NCBI GenBank assembly: GCA_034670405.1
Contig: JAXDDX010000019.1
Coordinates: 2,608,501 to 2,672,500, forward strand
DNA length: 64,000 nt
Direction of reading: 5' to 3'
From: Hoplostethus atlanticus
Lineage: Eukaryota > Chordata > Actinopteri > Trachichthyiformes > Trachichthyidae
Shown piece after piece: positions 29,100-40,792 of this stretch; within the stretch, counting starts at the first letter, position 1, and the number at the start of each line of letters is the position of its first letter. The position numbers were made by a program, and so were the translations under genes. The notes under the pieces are model-generated. The model did not search any database and had not been told where the DNA came from. It was given only the letters and a program-made list of their open reading frames with translations.

Positions 29100-29103
29100 T
29101 ATA

Positions 29104-29260
29104 TGGAAGGCCGTTAGCGCAAATAACGTCTAGAAAGTATGTGTTGACACGTTAAATTCCTACGCGTTGACACGTCAAAAATTAACGTGTTAACACGTCA
29201 TGTAGATTTTCTACACCTTAAGACGTCAAATTTTGCCATGTTACCTGTCACAGCCAACGG
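29104..29260. repeat. Left terminal inverted repeat and subterminal motif array
   Basis: The first 34 bases mirror the right end of the element. They are followed by repeated words GTGTTGACACGTTAA, GCGTTGACACGTCAA, AACGTGTTAACACGTCA and AAGACGTCAAA. The motif core GTTRACACGT occurs at least three times within 110 bp. Confidence 0.8.
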
Positions 29261-29553
29261 ATTGTTCCATTCTAGTGATGTCTACTTTCTAATAGGGGTG
29301 TTAGAAAGGAAGCCTGAGGCACAGCGAGTTTTGGCTGTTTCTTCTTCTTCTTTTGTTGTCTAATGGCGGTTGGCAAACAGCTTTTAGGTGCATTACCGCC
29401 ACCTTCTGGATTGGAGTGTGGATCAGAACGGTTACTATACTATTACATTCAATTATCCTATTAACACTAGAAGCCTCGTTTGGGTTTTTCTGTTGCAAAT
29501 ATCTCTGTTCAAATAAAGAGTATGAGGCCCCTAGTCCATGACCTTGTTTGCAG

Positions 29554-29668
29554 CAGATGTGGTGGCAGTGTTTAAACCGTCAAGCCTATCACTGACTGGG
29601 TCCAACAGGAGGAGGGGGTGAGACCAGGACCATTGCCTACTGGAGGGACTGGCTCCTGCAGGTGGAGG
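29554..29668 (+). pseudogene. HECT E3 ligase exon inside the transposon
   Basis: Acceptor CTTGTTTGCAG precedes an exon ending GTGGAGG before donor GTAAGA. It encodes VFKPSSLSLTGSNRRRG and, after a frame disruption, ETRTIAYWRDWLLQVE. Words of this kind (GSNRRR then a WxDWL motif) occur just upstream of the final HECT segment in multicopy fish proteins annotated as G2/M-phase E3 ligase-like. Its last codon is split and completed as aspartate by the exon at 30142. The 5' exons were not found. Confidence 0.6.
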
Positions 29669-30141
29669 GTAAGAAAGTGCCAAATATAAACACATTGTAT
29701 TGTTTATGTGAAGTGTTCGTAGGGAAAAGGGCACCTAAACCATTTTCTGTTGTACCTTGTACCGTGGTTAAGCTTCACTGTTAATTAATTGTTTACTGTG
29801 TCCTGGTAAATCATTATTCAGGCCAGCATTTATTTACAGTCACACACAGCAGCAGAGGGTGCTCTTAATACTGTACAATGTACATATTGTGAGACACAAA
29901 TGGCTAGCAGTAGCTAACTCTCGCAGAGAGCAAGTGGAGTGTTGTGCATGCACATGAAGCTACTATGTGCTGGAGTTCGGACTAACACCAAAACACACAT
30001 CAGTAGTCTAGTCTAGTGTGCAATATTAACATAATCCCCTCTTTTAATTTATTATTATAATTTAAACAATAAAATAACTGTTCATTTTCTTTACATTATT
30101 TAGTCCTCAAGTTCATTGATTACAAAAATGTATTTTGACAG

Positions 30142-30389
30142 ATGGAGAACCCTCGCTGAGCCTGGGAGACATCCTCACCTTTGCCACTGGGCTGGAGAAA
30201 ATCCCAGCTATGGGGTTTCCCTCACAACCTGAGCTGGAGTTTCTCCACCCAGAGGATGGACCAGCCCTTTATCCCACAGCGAATACCTGTGCGCTGATAC
30301 TTCGCCTTCCAGTACATCAGACGTACAATAAATTCAAGAGTGCCATGGAAACAGGAATTGGCTGTGCTGTTCATTTTGGGGTGCAGTAA
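30142..30389 (+). pseudogene. HECT domain C-lobe, last exon of the transposon's plus-strand gene
   Basis: After acceptor TATTTTGACAG the frame reads DGEPSLSLGDILTFATGLEK, IPAMGFPSQPELEFLHPE, YPTANTCALILRLPV and HQTYNKFKSAMETGIG to a TAA. This is the end of a HECT ubiquitin-ligase domain: ILxFATG, the PxxGF turn, and TANTCxxxLRLP, where the cysteine after TANT occupies the position of the catalytic HECT cysteine, followed by the usual closing FG. The known family reaction is thioester transfer of ubiquitin from E2 to substrate. N-terminal domains are missing here, so no function is claimed for this copy. Confidence 0.75.
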
Positions 30390-30427
30390 GACACTGAAAA
30401 GCAGAACCAATTCCTGTTTCCATGGCA
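30341..30427. repeat. Hairpin 1: inverted copy of the HECT coding end
   Basis: Left arm 30341-30361 and right arm 30407-30427 are perfect 21-bp reverse complements (TGCCATGGAAACAGGAATTG plus G). With mismatches the pairing extends inward about 17 more bases to a loop near GGGGTGCAGTAAGAC. The left arm codes for the AMETGIG end of the HECT exon and spans up to its stop; the right arm lies after the stop. Read backwards the right arm also spells AMETGIGSAF, so it is an inverted duplicate of coding sequence. The fold has the size of a microRNA precursor. Confidence 0.85.
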
Positions 30428-30440
30428 AGTAAATTGGTCT

Positions 30441-30580
30441 TTTGATCAGATTTACCAAAGGTTGACTCAGGAGGAAGATTTGTGTTTTGGATTAGCAAAG
30501 TCTAAATTTAAATCAGGACGTAGTCAATCCAAAATGCAAATCTTCCTCCTGAGCCATTCTTTAGTGGATCTGATTGAATG
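30441..30580. repeat. Hairpin 2: long imperfect inverted repeat
   Basis: The arm at 30464-30493 (CTCAGGAGGAAGATTTG then TGTTTTGGATT) pairs with 30526-30555 with three mismatches. Weaker pairing continues outward between TTGATCAGATTTACCAAAG and CTTTAGTGGATCTGATTG. The loop contains AAATTTAAATCAGGAC, which is seen in some palindromic fish MITEs. It may be a small MITE nested between the two transposon genes. Confidence 0.75.
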
Positions 30581-31070
30581 ATTGATTATGGTCTTGTTGG
30601 AAGACTTACAAGGGGTTCACATACAAGTCCTTTTCTGGGGAAAAATGCACTTTTTCTATTCCCCCCCCGCCCCCCTTCTGTTTTTGTTTACTTGTTTTGA
30701 TAAGCATACGACTGCAGGCCTGCTCTCAGATGCCCGTGTGCGTGTTAAGGAGTCCTAGTTTGGAAAAATAAAATGCATACAAAATATAAACGCATTCCAA
30801 GTGTGATATTTTTCATTTTATTTATTGCATAAGGTGAAAATGTTGAGGGAGAGGGAACAGTTAGACTCATACTATTGTGTTAATAAGTACATTTTATTGT
30901 CACTCAAAAAAACACACCAAAATACTCAAAACAAGCATAAATTGTTCAACCAAAGACATTATATAGGAGACATTTCACTTGCTCCTGTCTTTATGTATGT
31001 ATGCAAAATGGCATCACTGTACAGTCCAATGTTGTTGTTAATCTCTGTTGGATGGACTCCTAGCTTTGGT

Positions 31071-31500
31071 TCAGCTTAAAATAAAGCTCAGCACTTCCTC
31101 CAGAAGATCGACTCCAATCATGTCTCTTGAACCCGCCAAAGGGTTGACTCGTTGCTGGAGTTCTTGAAGGCGAACGGGCTCAAGAACAAAACGATTGGAG
31201 GGAACATTAACCCTCTCTGGCCAGTTGAAAGCAGATGCTGGTAGTCTCTGTCCTCCCTCTACTGGCTGCTCATCTGCACCGAAAACCCCTTGAACACCCG
31301 TGAGATTTCGTGACTGTAGTTGAAGACATCCCCGCACAAACATTTGATACGGGGACATGTACCGTGCAGTCCTGAGCCCATGGTGGTTCCACTGGTTGAC
31401 AAAGAGACCCAGGTCTCGGTTGATCCTCGGCAAGTACACGTAGTGTAGAGCCCAAAGGTGCATTTCATTGTTGCAGTCCAAACAAATACAAACAACAACA
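31071..31500 (-). pseudogene. Integrase-core transposase-like protein, C-terminal exon
   Basis: The minus-strand frame reads NNEMHLWALHYVYLPRINRD, LGLFVNQWNHHGLRTARYMS and PYQMFVRG, then a tail with FNWPERVNVPSNRFVLEPV to a TAA. The segment LHxVYLPRINRxL, WNxHxLRTA and SPxQxxxxG is the end of the DDE integrase-type core in multicopy fish proteins annotated only as integrase core domain-containing. The DDE residues themselves lie upstream and are not seen here. The exact acceptor was not resolved. Convergent with the HECT gene in the same transposon. Confidence 0.65.
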
Positions 31501-31629
31501 CTAAGGAGCTGAAATCAACTTATGGCCAAACCAGTTAATTGTCTTACCATAACACTGAAATAATAAATCATCTTTAAGGTGATTAAACTTCCATGGAAAG
31601 GGGGTAGATGTGTATTTTTCTAACACCCA

Positions 31630-32090
31630 TTGTGGGAAAGACTGAATGACTGAGCGAGCCAGAGAAAGAAGGCGCTCACGACACTAAAACACACAAGCAC
31701 TAGGGTTTGACTAGGTAAAGTTATATATTTGATCTGCAACTGTGTATTCAAACTCAAAATCAGCAAAAGTAACTTGTTGTGTGCTTATGGCCAGACAAAG
31801 CAGCCCATTACTCGGTCTCCACTCTCTGCGGTCACATCTCTAGCTCTCTCGCCCAAGTGAGGGAGCGGTACCGCGGCGTGTAGCGTTTATGTCGGAACTC
31901 ACATTATTTTGATGTTACCAAATAAATCATACAATGCGCAAGCAATCTAGAGATATCCCCGCAGTTGTGGTCTTGAAAAATAAAATCCCGGGTCCTCTTT
32001 GACCGAGACCGAGACAAGACCGAGTAAAAATGCGGCAGATTCCGAGACGAGACCTTCAAAAAATACCGATCTCGAGTACTACAACGCCGA
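31630..32090. mobile_element. Probable nested nonautonomous element inside the transposon
   Basis: GACCGAGACCGAGACAAGAC, GAGACGAGACCTTCAAAAAA and CGATCTCGAGTACTACAACG form one end of a common fish MITE whose mirror begins with a GTAGTACTCGAGA-type terminus. The opposite end was not found, so the left border is approximate. It sits between the two recognisable transposase exons. Confidence 0.45.
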
Positions 32091-32138
32091 TTAATAAATT
32101 ATTTGGCTTCATCTATTGGTCAAATTGAGGGGACTTAC

Positions 32139-32265
32139 CAGGCCGTCGTTGGTCTTCCCCAATCTCCTGACGAAATTCATTGATGAGACCCAACAAGTGG
32201 TCAGCTAACTCCGGTTCAACAAGCCTTCCTCTCGCCCACCGGAGACTTGCTTCCATTGTTTGCAT
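32139..32265 (-). pseudogene. Likely first coding exon of the integrase-like transposase
   Basis: On the minus strand an ATG at 32265 opens MQTMEASLRWARGRLVEPEL ADHLLGLINEFRQEIGEDQR RPG, ending at a donor GTAAGT. N-terminal segments of this amphipathic kind precede the integrase core in the fish proteins I recall. A second ATG at 32256 could be the true start. Middle exons are absent or replaced by the segment at about 31630-32090, so the gene is not intact. Confidence 0.45.
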
Positions 32266-32959
32266 TCTAGGTTATGGAAATAAACACAGCCAGCAAAAAC
32301 TAGGCTAGGCTAACGTTAAGTAAATGGCAAAAAGAACACACAGTATATGCGATTCAGACCAGCCACTTTATCATATCCTAATTACCTACGATGATTAAAA
32401 AGACTGTGGTTTTAACAAATCTAAAGCAACATGGTCTGCTAGGTAGCTAACGTTAAATAGCTTGGCCACATATCTGGCCATTAGATAGCTACAACATAGA
32501 GTTAGCGATTACAACATTACAACAGAGTTAGCCATTACAGCATAAAGCTAGCGATTTATTTTACCTTGACAAAGCTGCTCTGATTGTTTCCACATCGTCC
32601 GATGTTGCTAGTCTCGTACAATCCCTAAAGGTGCGGTTGCAATTGGAAAGGATGTTCTGCAGCGCCATCTCCAAGTTTCTTCTGCTTCTGAAACTTCACC
32701 GTCCCCCGCTGAAAGTTTAAATTGGTTTCTTCTAAACCACACCTCTGGCTTACGTTTCATACACATCATTTCCTTTACGGTATACGTAGGTGCCTGCAGC
32801 GTGCCTGTAATGAGTGCGTAGACGTCCACATCAGTAATTTATGCACCACGTCAGTAATTTATGCACAGCGTGGTCGCTTGCGTTGTTGTTCGACATCATT
32901 GACGCAACCCTCCTCATGAATACGTATGACTTCCTTGATTCAAGGTCCCTCATTGGCCA

Positions 32960-33225
32960 CAACCAGGAAATGCACGTTAACGTGTCAATTTTTGTCACGT
33001 TAACGTGTAGAAATATGACGCGTTAACACGACCAAATTTAACTTGTTAACACGTCATATTTGTACATGTTGACACGTTATTTCTAAGACGGTATTTGCCC
33101 TAACGGCGTTCCATAGAATATGACGCGTTAACACAACCAAATTTAACTTGTTAGCACGTCATATTTGTACGTGTTGACACGTGTTGACACGTTTCTAAGA
33201 CGGTATTTGCCCTAACGGCGTTCCA
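32960..33225. repeat. Right end of the transposon, tandemly duplicated
   Basis: A unit of about 107-112 bp ending GCCCTAACGGCGTTCCA occurs twice, ending at 33113 and again at 33225. Each unit has CGCGTTAACAC, ACTTGTTARCACGTCATATT and GTTGACACGT words. The two copies differ by a few bases and a GTGTTGACAC duplication. The outer copy abuts the TATA flank. Confidence 0.85.

Positions 33226-40792
<7,567 letters not shown>

Follow-up and report, generated by a model that had tools for sequence, protein, structure and literature searches.

Why does a gene for a ubiquitin ligase face a gene for an integrase-like enzyme in a fish genome? In a 64,000-nucleotide stretch of Hoplostethus atlanticus DNA (assembly GCA_034670405.1, contig JAXDDX010000019.1, positions 2,608,501 to 2,672,500; hereafter the window, to which coordinates refer), remnants of two such genes lie between inverted repeats. 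The window very probably holds the remains, shortened by internal deletions, of a DNA transposon of IS3EU/GingerRoot type with two genes, a judgement that leaves the target of the ligase aside. Judged from sequence comparison, the HECT ubiquitin-ligase gene is a recurrent and conserved second gene of these transposons, and some copies lack it. Three observations point to such a second gene: convergent gene pairs, diverged families with ends of their own, and an excess of silent-site changes between families. Searches for further copies covered the entire assembly (632.8 Mb, 1161 contigs).

The element in the window

A single mobile element of 4.1 kb occupies positions 29102-33227, with the boundaries TATGGAAG..CGTTCCATA. 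Its termini are inverted, as the first-pass annotation had claimed: 29100-29131 and 33198-33229 are 91% complementary across 32 nt. The left-end word, with up to three mismatches, occurs at three sites in the window (29103, 33086 and 33198), and none of 100 shuffled sequences contained any match. The repeated words previously described inside each end are also present. The window has 24 GTTRACACGT-like words (at most one mismatch; 5.9 expected), and 16 of them fall in 29143-29198 and 32980-33192, the ends of the element. The right tip is tandemly doubled, with 33080-33115 and 33192-33227 identical across 36 nt. The parts of the element are as follows; labels such as C63 denote other copies in the genome.

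29102-29131 (+): left terminal inverted repeat, tip TATGGAAGGCCGTTAG; the TATGGAA tip is common to C249, C63 and C117
29139-29199 (+): left subterminal repeats, GTTGACACGT/GTTAACACGT, spaced 23 bp
29200-29542 (+): remainder of the left end, shared in blastn with C63, C249, C89, C48 and C117; no coding match
29542-29543: scar of the first internal deletion; about 4.1 kb of the C63 copy is gone
29543-29668 (+): remnant of the penultimate HECT exon, with one extra G, out of frame; GTAAG donor-like site at its end
30142-30389 (+): final HECT exon, encoding the C-lobe and its cysteine motif TANTCALILRLP; stop codon at 30387-30389, putative start at an AG acceptor
30341-30581: inverted repeats around the HECT stop codon, at the exon's 3' end (30341-30373/30395-30427, 91%; 30438-30509/30510-30581, 75%)
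31074-31481 (-): C-terminal part of the rva_4 transposase gene (PF24764, E = 1e-19)
31481-31482: scar of the second internal deletion; about 2.4 kb, including the catalytic core exons, is gone relative to C63
32113-32271 (-): candidate first transposase exon, putatively assigned; a donor-like GTAAG follows
32973-33193 (-): right subterminal repeats, GTTRACACGT-like words
33080-33115 (-): inner of the two tandem copies of the right terminus
33198-33227 (-): right terminal inverted repeat, tip TTCCATA

The two gene remnants face each other, as had been described. On the plus strand, the C-lobe exon matches the Pfam HECT profile PF00632 over positions 233-304 of 306 (E = 4.7e-9; 36.8 bits, above the curated cut-off of 23.9). 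The minus-strand piece matches rva_4 over profile positions 132-193 of 194 only, the final third. The earlier reading of each as a two-exon gene holds in part. The HECT C-lobe is there, but the exon before it is out of frame, its extra G being judged relative to the C63 and C249 copies; tblastn recovers this penultimate exon in C249, C48, C137, C125, C63 and C89. The integrase-like piece is confirmed by its rva_4 match, but it is without the catalytic core, including the acidic residues read in C63, and Pfam yields nothing for the candidate exon at 32113-32271 at E values up to 1.

The deleted sequence comprises HECT exon sequence and the catalytic transposase exons (the HECT gene of C63 is itself truncated there). 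Hence, with these exons gone and the first HECT exon out of frame, the window copy encodes neither enzyme. As far as its sequence tells, it is a non-autonomous, internally deleted derivative. A transposase supplied from elsewhere might still act on its ends.

Longer copies of the window family

A genome search with the element returned at least 98 matching pieces. A 27-base end pattern, at up to two mismatches, occurs at 32 places in the genome, versus 0 for the reversed control. Longer copies that share the window ends are C89 (9.8 kb), C63 (about 10.3 kb), C117 (about 12.3 kb) and C249 (24.7 kb, with a 6.3-kb stretch that is missing from the six further copies aligned there). Between them, the longer relatives hold the missing HECT exons and catalytic integrase exons.

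The transposase is legible in C63, where its exons match rva_4 with E values of 3.2e-7, 2e-40 and 3.8e-28. Acidic residues can be read in the motifs WHLDG, CDHGGEN and NQRIERL, and in this family they have a catalytic role. An N-terminal exon matches HTH_23 and other helix-turn-helix families in Pfam; for this one exon, which covers the N-terminus in part, no zinc domain is among the 25 of 28 matched families listed. One core exon matches the Pfam family rve below the cut-off (E = 1.6e-5).

The HECT gene is longer in C249, C48 and C137, where extra exons include pieces of the N-lobe. One C249 exon matches UBX (PF00789, E = 1.3e-4, 22.6 bits, just above the cut-off of 21), and the UBX assignment for the window family is based on this single exon. 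Seven longer copies of the family were examined for genes (C249, C48, C137, C125, C63, C89 and C117), and six contain the convergent pair of HECT and transposase. Longer copies with the same ends and both genes, of the kind for which the first-pass annotation had proposed to search, are found. C117, with both ends and no HECT match, goes part of the way towards the outcome that the first-pass annotation had named as refuting its idea.

The left part of the long copies contains a short open reading frame (ORF) with an acidic stretch, RRINVEEALALFDELGEGESDGG (L014 1743-1982 (+); in C249, L009 1287-1523). It has no Pfam match above cut-off and is not in the window copy.

Target sites and tips

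Eight copies could be read at both ends: the window copy, C249, C63, C89 and C117 from the window family, and C207, C249b and C200 from diverged families. HECT sequence lies inside seven of the eight, and 6-bp target duplications flank five. The duplications are perfect in C207 (GGTTTG), C249b (TGTTCC) and C200 (CAGCGC). C89 has CTCGAC next to a damaged left tip, and C249 has GTCCAC with three extra bases on the left.

The 4-bp TATA duplication that had been suggested for the window copy is not one. The TATA on either flank consists of the element's own tip, TAT or ATA, plus neighbouring bases; the bases outside the tip differ between copies, and the duplications seen in five copies are 6 bp long.

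Sites without the element, which had also been proposed as a check, were found for C89. When its flanks are joined in silico, 39 of the 40 scored matches (among 201 candidates) cross the join without the element. Hence, C89 inserted into repeated sequence, of which copies without the element persist. The joined flanks of the window copy gave no empty site in the genome (14 matches: its two own flanks and 12 partial ones), and none was found there for C207.

The tips are TATGG..CCATA in the window family and in C249b, and TACGG..CCGTA in C200. Those of C207, TATGAGG..CCTCATA, are of the TA..TA kind, though not TAYGG. Mutation has altered single tips, namely the left ones of C48 and C89 and the right one of C311.

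Two further structures were seen in the element. The inverted repeats at 30341-30427 and 30438-30581 sit at or just past the HECT stop codon, between the convergent genes, and transcript 3' ends could fold into a hairpin there, to judge from the sequence. The first repeat recurs in six other HECT-bearing copies of the family (C249, C89, C63, C48, C125 and C137). The tandem duplication of the right terminus (window 33012-33227) is also found in C117 (L018 1149-1240), C199 (L036) and C207 (L024 1432-1570). It is perhaps a by-product of a choice between inner and outer ends in transposition. Elsewhere in the window lies a UnaL2 3' element of a long interspersed element (Rfam RF00436; 8304-8358 (+)).

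Probable placement in the IS3EU/GingerRoot superfamily

The first-pass annotation knew of no named superfamily with such a gene pair. The ends fit a named one. IS3EU/GingerRoot elements have TA..TA termini, usually 6-bp target duplications, no HHCC domain and an integrase-like DDE transposase (PMC10045372). The elements described here share the termini, the 6-bp duplication and, in the longer relatives, the integrase-like DDE core. Rva_4 may be the Pfam name for a transposase of the IS3EU kind. A difference is that the available part of that source mentions no HECT or other ubiquitin gene.

Accessory genes are already known in this superfamily. Fungal IS3EU elements have 6-bp duplications, terminal inverted repeats of over 30 bp and TAYGG..CCRTA tips, and TET+ members carry accessory genes beside the transposase (PMC12730594). 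In contrast to the fish elements, their hosts are fungi and the accessory genes encode an alpha-kinase (opposite to the transposase) and a TET/JBP dioxygenase; words beginning with 'HECT' or 'ubiquitin' do not occur in the available portion of that paper. Nor do words beginning with 'HECT' occur in what is available of PMC4255032. In the open-licence full-text literature, which omits most subscription papers, we found no HECT gene as an IS3EU accessory gene. Hence, accessory genes in IS3EU are known, and a HECT ligase in that role was not found in print.

Each protein also resembles a better known group. Animal HECT E3 ligases have the same domain with a C-lobe cysteine (PMC2837046, in whose available text no word begins with 'transpos'), and the best sequence match of the element HECT in PDB is HERC6 (E = 0.0024). 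The element C-lobes differ: they share 16-38% identity with the C-lobes of five further HECT genes in the same genome, presumably host genes, although one of them, C27, could be element-borne instead. Retroviral-type integrases are linked to the element by the sub-cut-off rve match and by weak PDB matches to integrases, including that of HTLV-2 (E = 0.58-0.61). In contrast to them, the element has short inverted repeats instead of long terminal repeats, and an N-terminal exon of the helix-turn-helix type.

The gene pair in diverged families

Genome searches for both protein families gave 126 HECT and 151 rva_4 exon matches, with scores for the best candidates only. The 150 rva_4 matches listed form 107 clusters and the 126 HECT matches form 52. 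Among these matches, 16 pairs of HECT and rva_4 clusters lie within 12 kb of each other and all 16 are convergent; there are no divergent and no same-strand pairs. In eight controls with shifted positions, convergent pairs numbered 0-2 and same-strand pairs 0-1.

Three diverged families were read at both ends and have both genes between ends of their own:

C207: 9,524 bp, TATGAGG..CCTCATA
C249b: 6,757 bp, TATGGAAGC..GCTTCCATA
C200: 6,277 bp, TACGGAGC..GCTCCGTA

The claim that one element owns both the HECT and the integrase gene is well supported by the convergent pair between matching ends in the window family and in these three families, with transposase cores down to 29% identical. HECT matches exceed the cut-off in C249b (27.8 bits), C200 (29.2 bits), C166 (25.0 bits) and C120 (25.2 bits). 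C249b even retains an unbroken HECT ORF of 649 amino acids (L049 2131-4077 (+)) that includes the C-lobe; its long N-terminal part has no Pfam match above cut-off. Both genes are also present in C337, C229 and C30. C166 and C120 were picked for long open rva_4 frames with no listed HECT match nearby, and both proved to have a convergent HECT ORF above cut-off. The share of rva_4 clusters with a HECT partner is therefore probably an undercount. Among viral contigs, neither the C249b HECT nor the C207 transposase had a relative.

Conservation and probable exchange of the HECT gene

The C-lobe cysteine is present in all nine element HECT proteins aligned. Selection appears to have maintained the HECT gene. 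Between families, silent changes outnumber replacement changes. For C249b and C120, nonsynonymous divergence (dN) is 0.21 and synonymous divergence (dS) 2.22 in the HECT N-lobe (190 codons), and 0.09 and 1.49 in the transposase (166 codons). For C63 and C207, dN is 0.48 and dS 2.87 in the C-lobe (76 codons); in the transposase core dN is 0.40 with dS saturated (67 codons).

Within the close pair C229/C30, the ratio of nonsynonymous to synonymous differences (pN/pS) is 0.37 for HECT and 0.88 for the transposase. The overall pattern may well be that of the usual transposon gene: selection in active lineages, then decay after insertion.

HECT and transposase distances are correlated across nine loci (Mantel r = 0.70, p = 1e-4). 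In a C-lobe tree, C337 falls among the presumed host genes, the window copy, C207 and C229/C30 fall together, and the C249b type is separate; the alignment is too short for counting captures.

Proposed role of the ligase and alternative explanations

What would a transposon gain from a ubiquitin ligase? By analogy with the superfamily, the transposase, with its rva_4 core and helix-turn-helix N-terminal exon, would bind the element at its ends and insert it, with a 6-bp duplication of the target. The facing gene would encode a HECT-type E3 ubiquitin ligase, a predicted activity, with UBX in addition to HECT in the window family. The ligase would act in trans for the element. Its most likely role, which we put forward tentatively, may be to attach ubiquitin to a host protein by which the transposon is silenced or restricted.

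Alternatively, the ligase could regulate the element itself, by ubiquitinating the transposase or the transposition complex and so limiting or timing transposition. Both genes sit in one element and their distances are partly correlated. However, C229 (L052) and C30 (L051) are mismatched: their transposase is nearest to C249b and their HECT nearest to C207. Hence, the ligase has probably been exchanged between element families at least once, which speaks against a tight partnership of the two proteins. We consider self-regulation possible, and less likely than an action on the host.

HECT may also be a captured host passenger that brings no benefit, like the gene pieces in other transposons. 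Several results weigh against a conserved second gene, and some of them favour such a passenger. Within families, copies look as if they decay near neutrally: pooled pN/pS in the window family is 0.62 for HECT and 0.41 for the transposase, and in the C207/C144 pair it is 1.11 for HECT and 3.85 for the transposase, the latter on one silent change. Between families dS is near saturation, and the Mantel correlation falls to r = 0.54 (p = 0.035, seven loci) once near-duplicates are removed. The mixed ancestry of C229/C30 makes exchange or repeated capture likely in part.

Copies without the gene count on the same side. C117 (12.3 kb, both ends; L018/L019) has a transposase and no HECT match. Five partly fetched copies (L024-L028) show no HECT in the fetched parts, which in L024-L026 may not reach the HECT position. 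C378 (L027) and C525 (L028) have transposase exons, and HECT is missing from the next 2.4 kb or so, its site in other copies; since the fetched part extends that far past the transposase, where HECT is expected, both probably lack it.

Further points against the main reading come from the counts and the ends. Only 16 of the 107 rva_4 clusters have a HECT partner among the matches listed, and the pairs do not amount to 16 independent events, because five belong to the window family and two (C207 and C144) to one other family. No clean 6-bp duplication flanks the window, C63 or C117 copies, although both ends were read. C144, of the C207 family, has the left tip while its right tip was not found, and terminal repeats were not identified in 10 kb at C337, C229, C30, C166 and C120.

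The passenger explanation is opposed by the same convergent order in families whose transposases have diverged so far, with no pair in any other orientation among the matches listed. The conserved cysteine and the silent-site excess between families argue in the same direction. We therefore regard the passenger explanation as improbable, more so than self-regulation, and retain HECT as a second gene of the element.

It is very unlikely that the element belongs to Ginger1 or Ginger2 instead of IS3EU. The first-pass annotation had named Ginger among the superfamilies to compare. Ginger transposases are likewise integrase-like, but target duplications are 4 bp in Ginger1 and 4-5 bp in Ginger2 (PMC10045372), compared to 6 bp in C207, C249b, C200, C89 and C249. 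The comparison of tips points away from Ginger as well: they are TA..TA throughout and, in the window family, C249b and C200, TAYGG..CCRTA as in IS3EU. The helix-turn-helix matches of the N-terminal exon count against Ginger too.

Finally, a host HECT remnant and an integrase remnant lying side by side between chance inverted repeats would suit the decayed window copy without target duplication, and the 36 of 52 HECT clusters (many presumably host genes) with no rva_4 within 12 kb among the matches listed, but HECT and transposase between matching ends in seven of eight copies, 32 end places against none in the control and the C89 empty sites make such a coincidence hardly credible.

Implications

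A wider statement is about evenly balanced between true and false: that in a deep clade of animal IS3EU elements the second gene is regularly HECT, which selection maintains, which at times passes between element families, and with which the elements alter host proteins, for example by destroying a silencing factor. If this wider statement is true, part of the multicopy HECT and 'integrase core' genes that are annotated separately in fish genomes are halves of one mobile element. Some HECT 'genes' in such genomes may be transposon parts, a warning for annotation for which ends and 6-bp duplications provide a simple test. That mobile elements may in some cases counter silencing by the host is suggested by transposons with genes for DNA demethylation or for kinases. 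To these a ubiquitin ligase, if conserved, would add another anti-silencing chemistry, in animals.

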